This document shows, piece by piece, positions 18,303 to 25,632 of a stretch of 40,373 nt of DNA. Source of the DNA: Candidatus Colwelliibacteriota bacterium. Its GTDB lineage: Bacteria > Patescibacteriota > Minisyncoccia > UBA6257 > Colwellbacteraceae. Under the pieces are notes generated by a model that saw only the letters and a program-made list of their open reading frames with translations, did no database searches and was not told where the DNA came from. The stretch is taken from contig JACOXB010000002.1 of NCBI GenBank assembly GCA_016176505.1, positions 1 to 40,373 on the forward strand, written 5' to 3'. Within the stretch, counting starts at the first letter, position 1. Every line of letters starts with the position of its first letter. The position numbers and the translations under genes are program-made.

Positions 18303-21020
18303 CTAAACCACAAAATTAATCAGTCTATCCTTAACGAAAATGGTGCGCTTGATTTTCCCGGCGCCGATTGCTTTTTTGATTTTTTCTTCAGCTAGAGCGA
18401 GTTTCTTAGCTTCGGTCTCACCCACGCCTCGCTTAACCGATACCTGTCCTCGGACTTTCCCGTTAACCTGAACGATCAGTGTAATAGTATTTTGTATTAA
18501 GTATTTAGTATTAAATTTCGGCCAAGCTTGGTTATGAATAGAATACTTATTGCCAAGTTTTTGCCATAGCTCTTCAGTAATAAACGGCGCAAGTGGCGCG
18601 AGCAAAAGTAGGAAAGTCTCAAAATCTTTACGCGATATTTGTTTTTCTTTTTCAAATTTATTAAGCGCGGTCATCAGCTCGGCAATGGCCGTATTGTATT
18701 TTAGATTAGCAATGTCTTCGGTTATTTCTTTAATATGAGGGTGAAGCCAGGGGGAGACCCTACCGGTACTCTGTACCTTGTACCCTGTACCAAGTTTTAC
18801 GCCCAGATTCCAAACCCGATTTAAAAACCTAACGATCCCTATAATGCCGGCGTCGCGCCAATCCCCTCCTTGCTCATATGGGCCGAGAAACATTAAGTAA
18901 AGCCGAACCACATCCGCACCGTATTTTTTAATATAAACATCAGGCACCACCACATTGCCTTTTGATTTGCTCATTTTGGCGCCGCTTGAAATTAAAAGTC
19001 CGTGAGCTCGAAACTCGGTAAAGGGTTCTTCAAAATTAATTAAGCCCATCTCCTTAAAAACCATGGTCAAAAACCGGCTGTAAAGCAGATGAAGCACCGA
19101 GTGTTCAGCCCCGCCGATGTAACGGTTAACCGGCAACCATTTCTTCGCTATTTCTGGCCGCCAAGGGCAGGTCTTGTCATCAACCGAGGTATATCTGAAA
19201 AAATACCAAGCCGAATCAAGAAAAGTATCCGAATCAAGAAAAGTATCCGAAACATCAGTTTCACGACGGGCTTTAGCGCCACATTCCGGACATTTGGTTT
19301 CGTAAAATGATTTAACCGAAGCTAGCGGCGCCTCGCCTTTTCCAGTCGGGCGAAAATTTTTAATTTGTGGCAATTTAACCGGCAGGTCTTTCTCCGGAAC
19401 CGCATACCAGCCAGCATTCTCCTTGCCCGACGAAGCCTTGGCGCAGGCGGGGCAATGAATCATCGGAATCGGCGGCCCCCAATATCGCTGACGCGAGATT
19501 AACCAGTCGCGGAGGTGATAATATACCGCAGGCTTCCCCATCCCCCGTTCCTTCAACCACGTGTCCACCTTCTTTATAGCCGCTTCAGTCCTTAAATTAT
19601 TTAAGAAACCGGAATTGATGTGTCTCCCGTCACCGGTATATACCGCCAGAAAATTAATCGCGCGTGGCTTTATCTCAAGAGTGAAATCCTCCCCTCGCCG
19701 AATAAGCTCGTGATCCTTCCGATTCCCTATCCGAGCCCGCTCTAGAATCTCGATAACTCGATCTACATTTTTCCTGGCGATCTCATAGACCCGAACCGTA
19801 GGGGTCGCATATTCACGTGCTATCCCAAAACGTTTAATTTCCGTCGCCGTCTCAGAGAGATCTTCATCATAGATTTGGACAGAAATTGGACCCAGGGCTT
19901 CGCGTTTTGGCCGCTCAATCACGGAAATAACTGGGAGATGGAAAAGTTTCGCAAATTCAAAATCGCGTTCATCATGTGCCGGAACAGAAAAAATCGCACC
20001 CGTTCCGTAGCTGATAAGTACGAAATCGGATACGAATACCGGTAACTCGACACCGTTCACCGGATTAATAGCGAGGACCCCTTTGAGTCTCACGCCCGTT
20101 TTCTTTTTCGCGAGTAATCCCCTTTCAAAATCAGTTTTTTTCATCGCCTTTTCGGCGTAATGCCGAACTTCATCATAATTTTTAATTTGATGGGCAAGCT
20201 CTGTTATCAAGCCGTGCTCAGGGGCGAGCACAAGAAAGGTGGCACCGAAAATGGTATCGGCGCGGGTTGTAACGACGGTGATAATTTTATCTGAAGCTTT
20301 GATGGAAAAATTAATTTCGGTGCTCTCTGACTTACCGATCCAATTTCTCTGGGCGATTTTGACTTTTTCTGACCAGTCGATTCCTGCCTTGCCGCCAGGC
20401 AGGTTATCAAGATTTTTCAGCAACCGGTCGGCATATTTAGTGATTTTGAAAAACCACTGCTCTAAATCTTTTTTAACTACTTCGGTGCCGCAACGCTCGC
20501 AATCGCCGTTTACGACCTGCTCATCAGCCAGCACTGTTTTACAAGAAGGGCACCAGTTAACGCTCGCTTTTTTCCGATAAGCCAGTCCCCTTTTCCACAT
20601 TTGGACAAAAATCCATTGGGTCCACTTGTAGTATTCAGGGTCATAAGTTTCGAGCCGCTCCTCCCAGGCAAAACCATTACCGATACTTCGGAGCTGATCG
20701 TAAAATCTTTTTTCCGAGACTTTCGCCTGCTTCATCGGATGAGTGCCGATTTTCAAAGCGTAGTTTTCAGAATGAATGCCAAAGCCATCAAGCCCAATCG
20801 GTTGAAATACATCATTCCCCTGCATTCGGCGAAACCGGCCGTAAATATCACTGCCGGTGAAAGCATACATATTGCCGACATGGAGCCCTTCAGCCGAAGG
20901 ATAAGGAAACATCATCAAGTTATAAAAAGGCCGCTTAGCCCGCCTTAAATTAGGCTCGTAAATCTTTGTCTCAAACCACCGCTTGGACCACTTTTTTTCG
21001 ATTTGGGAAAAGGGATACAT
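18303..21020 (-). CDS. leuS: leucyl-tRNA synthetase
   Basis: FPYPSAEGLHVGN (HIGH region), SKSKGNVV (KMSKS), editing domain, VQVNGKVRGQ C-terminus. Confidence 0.97.
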   Translation of the reverse strand: MYPFSQIEKKWSKRWFETKIYEPNLRRAKRPFYNLMMFPYPSAEGLHVGNMYAFTGSDIYGRFRRMQGNDVFQPIGLDGFGIHSENYALKIGTHPMKQAKVSEKRFYDQLRSIGNGFAWEERLETYDPEYYKWTQWIFVQMWKRGLAYRKKASVNWCPSCKTVLADEQVVNGDCERCGTEVVKKDLEQWFFKITKYADRLLKNLDNLPGGKAGIDWSEKVKIAQRNWIGKSESTEINFSIKASDKIITVVTTRADTIFGATFLVLAPEHGLITELAHQIKNYDEVRHYAEKAMKKTDFERGLLAKKKTGVRLKGVLAINPVNGVELPVFVSDFVLISYGTGAIFSVPAHDERDFEFAKLFHLPVISVIERPKREALGPISVQIYDEDLSETATEIKRFGIAREYATPTVRVYEIARKNVDRVIEILERARIGNRKDHELIRRGEDFTLEIKPRAINFLAVYTGDGRHINSGFLNNLRTEAAIKKVDTWLKERGMGKPAVYYHLRDWLISRQRYWGPPIPMIHCPACAKASSGKENAGWYAVPEKDLPVKLPQIKNFRPTGKGEAPLASVKSFYETKCPECGAKARRETDVSDTFLDSDTFLDSAWYFFRYTSVDDKTCPWRPEIAKKWLPVNRYIGGAEHSVLHLLYSRFLTMVFKEMGLINFEEPFTEFRAHGLLISSGAKMSKSKGNVVVPDVYIKKYGADVVRLYLMFLGPYEQGGDWRDAGIIGIVRFLNRVWNLGVKLGTGYKVQSTGRVSPWLHPHIKEITEDIANLKYNTAIAELMTALNKFEKEKQISRKDFETFLLLLAPLAPFITEELWQKLGNKYSIHNQAWPKFNTKYLIQNTITLIVQVNGKVRGQVSVKRGVGETEAKKLALAEEKIKKAIGAGKIKRTIFVKDRLINFVV
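19211..19246. repeat. 18-bp perfect tandem duplication inside leuS
   Basis: CCGAATCAAGAAAAGTAT twice; gives SDTFLDSDTFLDSAWYF in LeuRS. Confidence 0.95.
19417..19453. repeat. palindromic dispersed element in leuS (encodes CPACAKASSGKENAG)
   Basis: Minus: TTGCCCCGCCTGCGCCAAGGCTTCGTCGGGCAA, TGCCC..GGGCA ends. Confidence 0.7.
20387..20404. repeat. palindromic dispersed element in leuS (encodes LPGGKAG)
   Basis: CCTGCCTTGCCGCCAGGCAGG. Confidence 0.7.
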
Positions 21021-21061: not shown

Positions 21062-21113
21062 ATCCCCCCTGCCCTGTGATTAATCACGTGATTAATCACA
21101 GGGCAGGGGGGAT
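21062..21113. repeat. 52-bp perfect loopless palindrome
   Basis: ATCCCCCCTGCCCTGTGATTAATCAC|GTGATTAATCACAGGGCAGGGGGGAT; core is two tandem copies of the 12-bp palindrome GTGATTAATCAC. Confidence 0.98.
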
Positions 21114-21133
21114 AGCGGTGCTATAATAAATAT

Positions 21134-21307
21134 ATGGGGAGAAGATCGATCCCAGAGGAGAATATTAGAAATCTCCAGAAGTCGCGGCGGAGCTATTACC
21201 TTAATCTGCCGATCGAGATGATTCGGCGACTTGGATGGAAAGAGAGGCAGAAAGTGGTGGTGGAAAAACGCGGCCGGGAGATTGTAATTAAAGACTGGAA
21301 AAAATAG
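21134..21307 (+). CDS. AbrB/MazE-like swapped-hairpin small DNA-binding protein (57 aa)
   Basis: MGRRSIPEENIRNLQKSRRSYYLNLPIEMIRRLGWKERQKVVVEKRGREIVIKDWKK; -10 TATAAT at 21122-21127; below the ORF track length cutoff. Confidence 0.8.
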   Translation: MGRRSIPEENIRNLQKSRRSYYLNLPIEMIRRLGWKERQKVVVEKRGREIVIKDWKK

Positions 21308-22235: not shown

Positions 22236-22298
22236 GTCTTAATTCTATAACGAATAAAGTTTAATAAAGTTCTAGTATAGCAGCTCGATTAAAGTAGT

Positions 22299-22331
22299 GA
22301 GCCCGCCCCGACACGAAGTCGGGACGGGCTC
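22299..22331 (-). terminator. GC-rich hairpin downstream of the small-protein gene (terminator-like, no T-run)
   Basis: GAGCCCGTCCCGAC TTCGT GTCGGGGCGGGCTC on the minus strand (one position is a U:G wobble only on that strand). Confidence 0.45.
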
Positions 22332-22347
22332 TGAGCGTTGGGTGCGC

Positions 22348-22608
22348 CTATCTATACCAAGCGCCACCTACCTCCTCGTCTGCTCCCAGATTCTCGGCGT
22401 GCTGCCGAAAATCGAAGGGCGGGATGAGCTGCTCCCGGAGGATCTCTTCGACGAGCTCCGCGAGCTCTGCCGGAGTGATACCGACCGACTTCGCCACGGG
22501 CCCGAGCGCGCTGTAGAAATCGTCGCAAGCGATCTCGAAGCGCCGCCGGCTACTGAGCAGATACTTGGATAACCGAGAAGCGATCTCCGCTTTTCGCACT
22601 GCGCCCAT
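22348..22608 (-). CDS. small alpha-helical protein, paralogue family member 3
   Basis: SD AAGGAGGTGG upstream of ATG; shares EIA..L.KY...LG.VA...GI...EL..LV.EIL pattern with 22632-22859 and 24393-24635. Confidence 0.7.
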   Translation of the reverse strand: MGAVRKAEIASRLSKYLLSSRRRFEIACDDFYSALGPVAKSVGITPAELAELVEEILREQLIPPFDFRQHAENLGADEEVGGAWYR

Positions 22609-22631
22609 ATCAGAACCACCTCCTTCTCTAG

Positions 22632-22859
22632 CTAAGAGCCGAAAATACTACGGGGCAGACCCGCGAAGAGCTGCTTCAGGAAAGCGCCGAGCTCCTCCGG
22701 GGGGACATTGATCGCTCTCGCGATCTCCCCGACCCTGCGTCCGAGCACATGCTGAAGAGTTTCTTCCTCGCCCCTAAGCACGCGCTCCGCCACGAGTTGG
22801 TAGAGACAGTACTTGAGAAAGAGCCAGGCGATCTCACCCTTTTGTTGGGGATCCATCAT
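22632..22859 (-). CDS. small alpha-helical protein, paralogue family member 2
   Basis: SD AAGGAGGTG then ATGATG at 22859; KGEIAWLFLKY...LGRRVGEIARAINVPPEELGAFLKQLF. Confidence 0.7.
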   Translation of the reverse strand: MMDPQQKGEIAWLFLKYCLYQLVAERVLRGEEETLQHVLGRRVGEIARAINVPPEELGAFLKQLFAGLPRSIFGS

Positions 22860-22896
22860 GGATTTCACCTCCTTTCCCTACTCGCTGATCCTATGG

Positions 22897-23955
22897 TTAG
22901 GGGCTGAACCCCATATCCTTGTCCGTTTGCCCCATCGCCTCAAGGGGATCTGCGCTGCGGGCGAGAATCCTTATGGCGTCGATGTTCGGCAAGACCGCGA
23001 GCGTGCGGTAGTACAAGGCGAGTTTCAACCGCAATACAGTCGCCTTTCCCTTGGGCGTTACTCGCAAGCTGCCGCCGAAAACAAGAATTGGCGGCACTCG
23101 GTCATCAATTACCCGGGCGAGATTGATGTCGTAAGTCCCCATCACAGAATCGGGCAACACCCGGACACGCGGAACACTACCAAGCCGCTCAATTATAGTT
23201 GAAGCGAGTATTACGCTTCTCGTTTCAATCTCCAGAGAGACCGCGTAGTGTAGCATCCCGGGGATTTGGATGACGCTTTCCACCACGATTTCCATTTCTG
23301 GAAAAAGTTGTTTCAGTTCATCTTCCATTCTCGGAATGTAAGCATCCGCGATCCTGAAGGTGTTGACCCGCTCGGTGACGAGGAAATCGCTTTCCCGCCC
23401 ATCGTACTGCATGACTAGATGAATTCGAACAGATCTAGCGACGTCTCTGAGGGCGGCGAGCACCGGAACCACACCGGAGAGGAAACAGCCTCCCTGACGG
23501 AATTTGTTGCCTCCTTGCGGCGGAGCTACAAGCGGTGGCGAGATCAATCGCCCGCGAGGATACTCGCCATCTTGCAGTATCACGGCTCCTGGAAACGCTT
23601 GGTATTGCTTCTGGAGAGCGTGTCTCATGCCGGGCGCGGCAGCGTCTATGACGATGTCGCACGTCTGCCCTAGGTCAAGTTGCTCAACCGGGTGGAATCT
23701 CAGAAAACCCGAACCGCTGTTGAGCCTAGCAATGGTGTCTTCGGGTTCATCAAGATACACCTTCTTCGGAAGGGCACTACGAGCGAGCGGACCGCCGAAG
23801 TCGTAACGATCGAGTAGACGCTGGAGGGTCGGATCATACTTGAAAATGCCGACCGCCAACTCCATATCCTTGCTTTGAGCAATAGCAATAGCGAGACGGG
23901 AACCAAGCAGGCCGGCTGCTCCACGGATTCCAACCCGAACCTTATCTTCTTCCAT
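22897..23955 (-). CDS. archaeal/type II glyceraldehyde-3-phosphate dehydrogenase homologue (divergent)
   Basis: KVRVGIRGAAGLLGSRLAIAI Rossmann start; GGCFLSGVVPVLAALRD at the position of archaeal SCNTTGL..; C-terminus VLPNIDAIRILA..TDKDMGF matches archaeal GAPDH VPENIDAIRA...T...LG. Start taken at ATG 23955 with SD GGAGGGGG rather than the ORF-track TTG at 23991. Confidence 0.75.
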   Translation of the reverse strand: MEEDKVRVGIRGAAGLLGSRLAIAIAQSKDMELAVGIFKYDPTLQRLLDRYDFGGPLARSALPKKVYLDEPEDTIARLNSGSGFLRFHPVEQLDLGQTCDIVIDAAAPGMRHALQKQYQAFPGAVILQDGEYPRGRLISPPLVAPPQGGNKFRQGGCFLSGVVPVLAALRDVARSVRIHLVMQYDGRESDFLVTERVNTFRIADAYIPRMEDELKQLFPEMEIVVESVIQIPGMLHYAVSLEIETRSVILASTIIERLGSVPRVRVLPDSVMGTYDINLARVIDDRVPPILVFGGSLRVTPKGKATVLRLKLALYYRTLAVLPNIDAIRILARSADPLEAMGQTDKDMGFSP

Positions 23956-23983
23956 TCTCCCCCTCCTTGTTGTTAAAGATCTT

Positions 23984-24027
23984 CTAGACAAACTAAAACG
24001 CCTCAGCTTGTCTAGCCGAGGCGTTTT
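23984..24027 (-). promoter_or_regulatory. candidate pseudoknot/attenuator in the 5' leader of the GAPDH-like gene
   Basis: Interdigitated pairing on + coordinates: CTAGACAA (23984-23991) / TTGTCTAG (24008-24015) and AAAACGCCTC (23995-24004) / GAGGCGTTTT (24018-24027). Confidence 0.6.
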
Positions 24028-24098
24028 TCAGTAAAGAGTTAGAGAATGATTTAAGTTGAATTTATATCCAGATTAAAACCGCCTTGGCTAAACAAACT

Positions 24099-24134
24099 AA
24101 AAATGCCGCAAGTAAAGACAAAAGACTCACGGCA
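24099..24134 (-). terminator. intrinsic terminator-like hairpin in the same leader
   Basis: Minus strand: TGCCGTGAGT-CTTTTGTCTTT-ACTTGCGGCA-TTTTT; two U:G pairs make the stem continuous only on the minus strand. Confidence 0.65.
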
Positions 24135-24239
24135 ATCCGGAGCGATAAGCCACATATTCATTTGGCGGTTATGCTCTTGCATAATAGATAAAACGTTAAA
24201 GGATTTAAGAAGTTACGTCAAGCTTTTCTAAAAATGGTT

Positions 24240-24267
24240 GTGCCCCCCGACTTAAGTCGGGGGGCAC
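24240..24267 (-). terminator. 28-bp perfect palindrome, probable terminator of 24393-24635
   Basis: GTGCCCCCCGACTT|AAGTCGGGGGGCAC followed on the minus strand by AACCATTTTT. Confidence 0.6.
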
Positions 24268-24392
24268 GGGGACAGCACGAGGACGGCGGGGAGAGGTTCT
24301 TGTTCTGCCCTTGGTCCGACATGACGTCGGACGAGGTGCAATTACCCTTTTAGGGGGCGCTTTCGCCCCACCCTAGCCATCCTCGCTTCCGG

Positions 24393-24635
24393 CTACTCGG
24401 CGAAGGTCTCGTCTAGCAGCTCCTGCAGGATCTGCCTCACGAAAGGCGCGAGCTCTCGCAGGGGGACCTCGATCGCTTGGGCAACGCTTCCGAGGTCGCG
24501 CCAGATGCCGTTTCCTCGGAGCTCGATGCCACGCCGGCCGAAGTAGTACTTCAACATCTTGCGAGCGATCTCGCCCCTCCGTAGACGCTCGGCGAGTTCG
24601 ACGGGATCCATCTTCGGATCGCCATCCTTCATCAT
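24393..24635 (-). CDS. small alpha-helical protein, paralogue family member 1
   Basis: SD AAGGAGGTGAG; RGEIARKMLKYYFGRRGIEL...DLGSVAQAIEVPLRELAPFVRQILQELLDETF. Confidence 0.75.
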   Translation of the reverse strand: MMKDGDPKMDPVELAERLRRGEIARKMLKYYFGRRGIELRGNGIWRDLGSVAQAIEVPLRELAPFVRQILQELLDETFAE

Positions 24636-24718
24636 GAGGTTCTCACCTCCTTCCTAATGTGCGGTTTGCTACGAAACCCTCGTAGCGGGGACCCCCGAAC
24701 TATTTCGAGGATATATTC

Positions 24719-24747
24719 ATTATACCAGATTGTACCTTGGTTGTCAA
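24719..24747 (-). promoter_or_regulatory. perfect-consensus sigma70-type promoter
   Basis: Minus strand TTGACA-N17-TATAAT, upstream of 24393-24635. Confidence 0.85.
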
Positions 24748-24777: not shown

Positions 24778-25632
24778 TCAACCGCTGATGTTGAATACCT
24801 TAAACGCGTTTTTGGTGGTTGTCTCCCCTACTTCTTCGGTGGTTTTCCCTAAAATTTCGGCGAGCTTGGCGGCGGTGTGAATGATAAAGCTCGGTTCGTT
24901 TCTTTTGCCGCGGAAAGGAACTGGCGCGACATAAGGAGCATCGGTTTCGAGTAAAATTCGGTCAAGACCGATGTATTTAATCACTTCGTCATAATCTCTC
25001 GCAAAAGTAATCACTCCGCCGAAGGAAAAATAAAAACCGAGCTCCATAAGTTGCCTGGCGTCTTCTTTGGTGCCGCTGAAAAAGTGGACTACTCCGGCAG
25101 GAGTAGTAAGTATATTGTATTTTGTATTTAGTATCCGAATGAGGTTAGGAAAAGCATTTCGGCAGTGGAGCATTAAGGGTTTGTTAAGTTCGGCAGCGAG
25201 TTCGATTTGAGCAATAAAAGCTTTTGCCTGTTCTTCTTTTGTCTCTTCGGTCAAACGATAATAATCCAAACCGCACTCGCCGATGGCTACGACTTTCGAA
25301 TTTTTACCAAGTTCTTTGTAATAATTGACGTCAAACTCTTCGCCCCGACTCACGAAGCCTTCCTCGCCCGCCGTAGCTTTAGCGAAGGAGGGGCTTAATT
25401 CTTTGGTATCGTGATATGACTTCGAAGTATGAATGGGGTGAAGGCCAATTGTGGCGTAAACACCTTTTTCATATTTTTCAGCCATTTCAACTGCCGCTTT
25501 CGAAGTGTCTTTTTGAGTGCCAACATTAATAAACCAAATGTCATTAGCTAAGGCGCGATCAATTACTTCTTTCGCATCCTCATTAAAGGCCGCGAATTGA
25601 ACGTGAGTGTGAACATCTATCAATCGAGGCAT
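24778..25632 (-). CDS. tatD: TatD family metal-dependent hydrolase
   Basis: LIDVHTHVQF, IGECGLDYYR, HCRNAF, VHFFSGT, LLETDAPYVAP. Confidence 0.95.
   Translation of the reverse strand: MPRLIDVHTHVQFAAFNEDAKEVIDRALANDIWFINVGTQKDTSKAAVEMAEKYEKGVYATIGLHPIHTSKSYHDTKELSPSFAKATAGEEGFVSRGEEFDVNYYKELGKNSKVVAIGECGLDYYRLTEETKEEQAKAFIAQIELAAELNKPLMLHCRNAFPNLIRILNTKYNILTTPAGVVHFFSGTKEDARQLMELGFYFSFGGVITFARDYDEVIKYIGLDRILLETDAPYVAPVPFRGKRNEPSFIIHTAAKLAEILGKTTEEVGETTTKNAFKVFNISG
25361..25393. repeat. palindromic dispersed element in tatD (encodes PSFAKATAGEEGF)
   Basis: Minus: CCTCCTTCGCTAAAGCTACGGCGGGCGAGGAAGG. Confidence 0.65.

Follow-up and report, generated by a model that had tools for sequence, protein, structure and literature searches.

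Three small genes (w1, w2 and w3) bracket a GAPDH-like gene on the minus strand of a Patescibacteria genome. Do they form a functional module with this enzyme, as a first-pass annotation of the locus had proposed, or do they belong to something else? The DNA analysed here (the window, a stretch of 40,373 nucleotides) forms contig C2 of a genome of 466 kb (97% complete) that has its relatives among Patescibacteria. The features considered below are as follows.

22348..22608 (-): w1, third small paralogue, 86 aa, no RNA behind it
22632..22859 (-): w2, second small paralogue, 75 aa from its ATG, no RNA behind it
22897..23955 (-): divergent type II GAPDH homologue, 352 aa, a local neighbour outside the recurring unit
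23995..24027 (-): hairpin resembling a terminator, within the leader that precedes the GAPDH-like gene
24240..24267 (-): intrinsic terminator with a 12-bp stem, just past the RNA
24277..24386 (-): conserved 3' structured RNA of ~105 nt, with P1, P2, linker CUAAAA, P4, bulged-G-like internal loop and P3
24297..24299 (-): bulged-G-like core, GAA strand; no variation in 42/42 sequences (alignment A8)
24343..24345 (-): bulged-G-like core, GUA strand; G in 40/42 sequences, U and A in 42/42 (alignment A8)
24393..24635 (-): w3, the unit's canonical small ORF; 80 aa, predicted to form three helices
24636..24718 (-): 5' leader, containing two hairpins and the Shine-Dalgarno AAGGAGGTGA (from the sequence and the leader folds of 26 loci)
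24719..24747 (-): sigma-70 promoter TTGACA-N17-TATAAT of the unit, 12/12 consensus matches

The small ORFs form one undescribed protein family

The ORF list of the window contains the three small minus-strand ORFs that had been annotated (22348-22608, 22632-22859 and 24393-24635), and each was indeed found to be preceded by a near-perfect Shine-Dalgarno sequence of the AGGAGGT type. The perfect TTGACA-N17-TATAAT promoter of the annotation was also recovered, at 24747-24719; it is the only perfect copy in the region and precedes ORF 24393-24635. The proposed homology of the three paralogues was significant both by pairwise BLASTP, in which w3 matched w1 with E 2e-9 and w2 with E 1e-7 and w1 matched w2 at only 0.004, and by an HMM based on 17 family members of other genomes, which ranked w1-w3 as the top three of the 883 window ORFs (E 1.7e-19, 5.5e-11 and 2.9e-8; next ORF, 1.2). 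No family in Pfam, NCBIfam or PADLOC matched the small protein above cut-off. Judged by sequence similarity, w1, w2 and w3 are one undescribed protein family.

Family members mostly have 63-86 aa, some being longer or carrying two copies of the domain (fused or tandem duplications at L050, L051, L083, L088 and L090), and the small proteins are ~27-32% identical. Two motifs are conserved, RKGEIA...LK and RELGN.AK.IG....EL, and the conserved positions (RKGEIA, K, RELGN, AK, EL) are mostly charged or helix-turn residues. AlphaFold2, run from 16 sequences, predicted three helices (pLDDT 83-85, pTM about 0.6). Foldseek searches against the PDB and viral models gave nothing at E<=0.001, and the weak top matches (E>1) were mostly HTH-type domains; the best Pfam match, NirdL-like_HTH, was also weak (E 0.058). 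The annotation had ascribed an HTH-like character to the C-terminal half; an HTH-like trihelical fold is a plausible candidate for the modelled protein. A profile match to the designed protein OR366 (E 7e-5) was discarded, as no stretch passes alone and the match reflects a helical-repeat resemblance.

Other elements of the window were noted in passing. Two similar short elements, GCCAAGGCTTCGTCGGGCAAGGA and GCTAAAGCTACGGCGGGCGAGGA, at 19420-19442 and 25361-25383 (-), lie within leuS and a tatD-like gene, in frame with each, and encode the peptide AKA(S/T)(S/A)GxE (2 matches, 0.09 expected); in this they resemble the palindromic elements that some bacteria have inside their genes. A near-perfect long palindrome, CCCCCCTGCCCTGTGATTAATCACGTGATTAATCACAGGGCAGGGGGG, is located at 21064-21114, between leuS and the start of a short ORF (21134-21307).

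The GAPDH-like gene is an incidental neighbour

The GAPDH homologue between the paralogues is real: the product of 22897-23955 aligns over its full length with archaeal-type (type II) GAPDH (NF003251/TIGR01546, PDB 2czc), and its cysteine falls on the catalytic cysteine. It is divergent, however, and scores far under the family cut-offs, with 53.9 bits over residues 5-350 against NF003251 (cut-off of 185) and 41.4 bits in a second type II GAPDH comparison (cut-off 232.9); the E value against 2czc was 1.3e-6, and in the pairwise alignment the catalytic His did not fall in register, being shifted by at least one position. No consensus promoter was found before the gene, and the hairpin at 23995-24027, just upstream of its start, is a possible attenuator. 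Profile searches with PF00044 and PF02800 found no canonical type I GAPDH in the window genome; PF02800 was absent, and the single PF00044 match sits in an ORF (L001) that reads from its sequence as MurD-like. Because PGK is present and canonical GAPDH is absent, 22897-23955 may encode the only glycolytic GAPDH of the genome. In another genome of the same order (G082), a different divergent type II GAPDH-like gene (L006:1501-2598, 365 aa, 79 bits to NF003251) was found, and that genome has neither the small ORF nor the RNA described below.

The first-pass annotation had suggested a role of the small proteins in regulating or binding the GAPDH-like enzyme. The gene is physically bracketed by the paralogues in the window genome, with w1 and w2 directly behind it in the same orientation, but this arrangement was seen nowhere else. 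No GAPDH-like neighbour was found at the homologues in the ~6 other genomes of the first protein search, nor at any of ~40 other family loci, and in a single-sequence search of 150 relatives the gene was found in the window's own genome and in none of the 149 others. A neighbourhood survey reaching up to 5 kb from the family loci likewise revealed no recurring gene. We therefore rejected a GAPDH module, in which the recurring neighbour is missing, and regard regulation or binding of the enzyme by the small proteins as very improbable.

Base composition is distinct in this region. The ORFs and the RNA between 22.3 and 24.7 kb have a GC content of 58-62% and the GAPDH-like gene 55%, versus 47% for the window, and GC3 is 0.71-0.80 in the ORFs versus 0.47. 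The small ORF is duplicated in the window genome, and the two RNA-less copies and the GAPDH-like gene share a compositionally distinct island. The gene is an incidental neighbour with no functional tie indicated and, together with w1 and w2, is a local, compositionally foreign addition.

A conserved structured RNA follows the small ORF

Directly 3' of ORF 24393-24635 lies an RNA element (24277-24386) that the first reading had overlooked. When the stretches behind the stop codons of the true protein hits were compared, a common string (..CUAAAAGGGUAAUUG..hairpin..CAGAAYAAGAACCUCUCC..) was present behind every one of them, and also at 24277-24386. The window RNA scored 94-95 bits with covariance models R1 and R2, and its fold z-score was -5.1 relative to shuffles. 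It is the only R1 match in the window, with none behind w1 or w2.

The near-invariant core reads GUAAUUG / CAG-AAYAAGAACC, and 12 core columns are identical in 42/42 sequences. P1 is the outer stem, which ends in RGG/CCY and shows A-U/G-C swaps there. P2 is a variable hairpin, followed by the A-rich linker and P4 (NGG/CCN), whose pairing is kept through GC/AU and AU/CG/GC exchanges. An initial P4 register, GGGU/ACCU, was replaced by NGG/CCN because later sequences covary in the latter. An asymmetric internal loop separates P4 from P3, which has a UG..CA base and a variable, covarying arm. Beside P4, the two strands of the loop read GUA and GAA, a combination that is, as judged from sequence, the signature of the bulged-G (loop E, sarcin-ricin) motif.

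Among 26 aligned sequences, standard pairs made up 85% of the proposed stems versus 70% after shuffling, double-change cells numbered 151 versus 52, and the covariation score was 0.495 versus 0.203, with all slid controls at or below 0.25. In the set of 42 sequences, double-change cells numbered 202 versus 86 and the covariation score was 0.403 versus 0.207; the +1 slide control reached 0.307 because the automatic alignment slips register in the variable arms. These alignments show strong covariation for the predicted three-way junction.

A search of Rfam 15 gave no match over the element in the window region at E<=1 and nothing above chance at 20 other loci, where the one sub-threshold hit was to suhB (E 0.21, one locus), and assignment to a known RNA family was therefore rejected. 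In open-access texts, an incomplete sample of the literature, a search for reports of a comparable RNA from Patescibacteria found none. As far as Rfam 15 and these texts show, the RNA family was previously uncatalogued.

Two local roles of the element were considered and rejected. Sequestration of the Shine-Dalgarno sequence by the anti-SD-like ACCUCUCC of the 3' RNA does not hold for the window transcript, in which the Shine-Dalgarno pairs locally and is equally accessible when the 3' RNA is removed. A stop-codon readthrough element was dismissed since UAA occurs in two frames within the core itself.

ORF and RNA are linked across genomes

The survey, which used MAG assemblies, started from a profile of the three window proteins alone. 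Searched in 199 relatives, it gave plausible matches in ~6 genomes and one further, spurious match inside a 464-aa frame; all 6 plausible genomes proved positive when these 199 were later searched for the RNA. A scan of 85,462 species genomes of bacteria and archaea with the pattern AAGGGTAATTG-N20..50-AGAAYAAGAACCT returned 24 loci. Those with an informative name all belong to Patescibacteria (Moran-, Falkow-, Taylor-, Komeili-, Portnoy-, Vogel-, Staskawicz- and Parcubacteria), the remainder being labelled merely bacterium or uncultured bacterium. At most of the 24, the small ORF lies directly upstream. L039 and L043, which are contig ends, and L054, with an eroded ORF, depart from this, and at L056 the C-terminal part of the ORF alone is recognisable.

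Model R1 (E<=0.01) found the RNA in 11/199 relatives, 6/382 genomes of the phylum and 18/387 of the class, samples that overlap, and always as one copy per genome. With R2, 13 of the 239 genomes of the order were positive; the protein profile was positive in 15 of these 239, with E<1e-4 in 10, and the RNA was present in 9 of the 10. Strong RNA loci that had not been used in model building had a small-ORF homologue immediately upstream in all cases (15/15, 15.7-94 bits), as detected by a protein HMM that contained none of them. Two weak RNA matches without an ORF (L069 and L070, E 0.004-0.008) are probably chance. The pairing of ORF and RNA is near-obligate. The unit is patchy, occurring in about 2-5% of the sampled Patescibacteria genomes, a lower bound because strict filters were used, and as far as labelled records show it is confined to Patescibacteria.

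Some cases deviate from the usual arrangement. In G146 the ORF and the RNA are split between two contigs, each lying at a contig end. At L054/L076 the ORF is eroded but the RNA scores best of all; in G152 (L099) the promoter, leader and ORF are kept and apparently only the outer stem of the RNA is left. Either part can therefore survive without the other, at least for a short time. Besides a complete unit, one genome has a second family protein without RNA (L109 in G019:C52, 31 bits), like the window genome.

Architecture of the unit

The RNA starts within about 0-35 nt of the stop codon, as it does behind 24393-24635 and does not behind w1 or w2. A TTGACA/TATAAT-type promoter with at most two mismatches precedes 29/37 units, compared to 14% of random segments, and 26/37 have a terminator within 100 nt (random segments, 11%). 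Since the messenger nearly always ends in the same folded RNA, the gene and the RNA form one unit, and the promoter, ORF, RNA and usually a terminator make it self-contained. A conserved 5' leader was rejected as part of it: leader hairpins are common, yet they are not one alignable structure. The second leader hairpin of w3 is GCUACGAGGGUUUCGUAGC, and its GGG-bearing loop (e.g. CGAGGGUNUCG) recurs in a minority of the other leaders (L036, L037, L046, L049, L072 and L099); it is possibly a second binding site.

Possible functions of the unit

We tentatively favour, at somewhat less than an even chance, binding of the 3' RNA by the small protein of the same unit, which would give a stable RNA-protein particle or autoregulation of the mRNA. 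In its favour are the covariation of the RNA, the near-obligate pairing with the ORF, the lack of recurring neighbour genes and the mostly charged or helix-turn residues at the conserved protein positions. The promoter would drive a transcript comprising the leader hairpins, the strong Shine-Dalgarno, the three-helix ORF, the RNA and usually the terminator; that ORF and RNA share one transcript is suggested by their spacing and by the position of the terminator. The small protein would then bind the three-way-junction RNA behind its own ORF, and the outcome may be a stable RNA-protein particle or 3'-end control of the mRNA (stability or translation). Several observations count against a protein-RNA pairing. 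The net charge of the small proteins is near zero and their pI 5-10, in which many RNA-binding proteins differ; w1 and w2 have no RNA; single-part remnants occur naturally (L054/L076, G152); and the RNA core changes far more slowly than the protein, as would also be expected if the RNA had some other, conserved partner.

The last point leads to an alternative that we consider rather unlikely, namely that the RNA is the functional product, as a 3'-UTR-derived small RNA or a sensor of a conserved factor or metabolite, and the protein has a separate task, for instance as an HTH regulator repressing its own promoter. The nearly invariant core beside such divergent proteins, the RNA that outlasts its ORF at L054/L076 and the weak HTH-like matches of the protein all agree with it, as do bulged-G-type internal loops, which are found in many sensing and scaffold RNAs. 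Nevertheless, the near-perfect linkage to the ORF across many genome families exceeds the needs of a free-standing small RNA, and a sensor would lack a recurring downstream gene to control. Less probable still is a selfish or defence-type cassette of toxin-antitoxin-like character, whose RNA neutralises or licenses a small toxic protein. Its scattered presence in all four genome samples, the single RNA copy per genome, its own promoter and terminator without fixed neighbours, and the foreign composition in the window could be so explained, but PADLOC gave no match at E<=1, the RNA repeats or larger toxin of type III systems are missing, and elsewhere the units exceed their flanks in GC by only 3 points on average. 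No copy was found in phage or plasmid records, and an origin from either was rejected.

Known systems resemble the unit in part. Ribosomal protein S15 is an example of a bacterial RNA-binding protein that binds a structured site in its own mRNA; such sites are usually 5' leaders mimicking rRNA. As there, a small helical protein stands beside a conserved structured RNA on what appears to be one transcript, but here the element is 3' and the binding putative; Rfam and protein-profile searches found no rRNA or ribosomal-protein match to the unit. In type III toxin-antitoxin systems, RNA repeats lie 5' of a larger toxin. The combination of a small protein gene and a structured RNA in a compact, patchily distributed cassette is shared, whereas the present unit has one RNA, placed 3' of a shorter protein, and defence-family profiles gave no match. 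The raiA motif is a candidate structured RNA from comparative genomics that is held in Rfam (PMC11706538); such motifs likewise have a covarying structure, a conserved core and a consistent genomic context, while the present RNA is outside Rfam 15, tied to one small-protein family and 3' of its ORF. In IS607 elements, the TnpB gene is followed by its guide RNA, a RAGATH-18-derived reRNA (PMC11061315). There too a structured RNA stably co-occurs immediately downstream of a protein gene, but the protein described here has 63-86 aa and no nuclease domain, and transposon ends and a guide segment were not seen.

Significance

A small ORF flagged for its neighbour really flagged an RNA, and what is gained is a covarying RNA family outside Rfam together with a linked protein. 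Regulatory and structural RNAs of Patescibacteria are, to our knowledge, almost unexplored. The consensus AAGGGUAAUUG-N20..50-AGAAYAAGAACCU is searchable and the partner of ~70 residues easily expressed, so that function is directly testable. The unit might, though we think this doubtful, represent a new RNA-protein class found in Patescibacteria only, in which one transcript would give both components, move between lineages and serve a task unlike that of known small RNPs.
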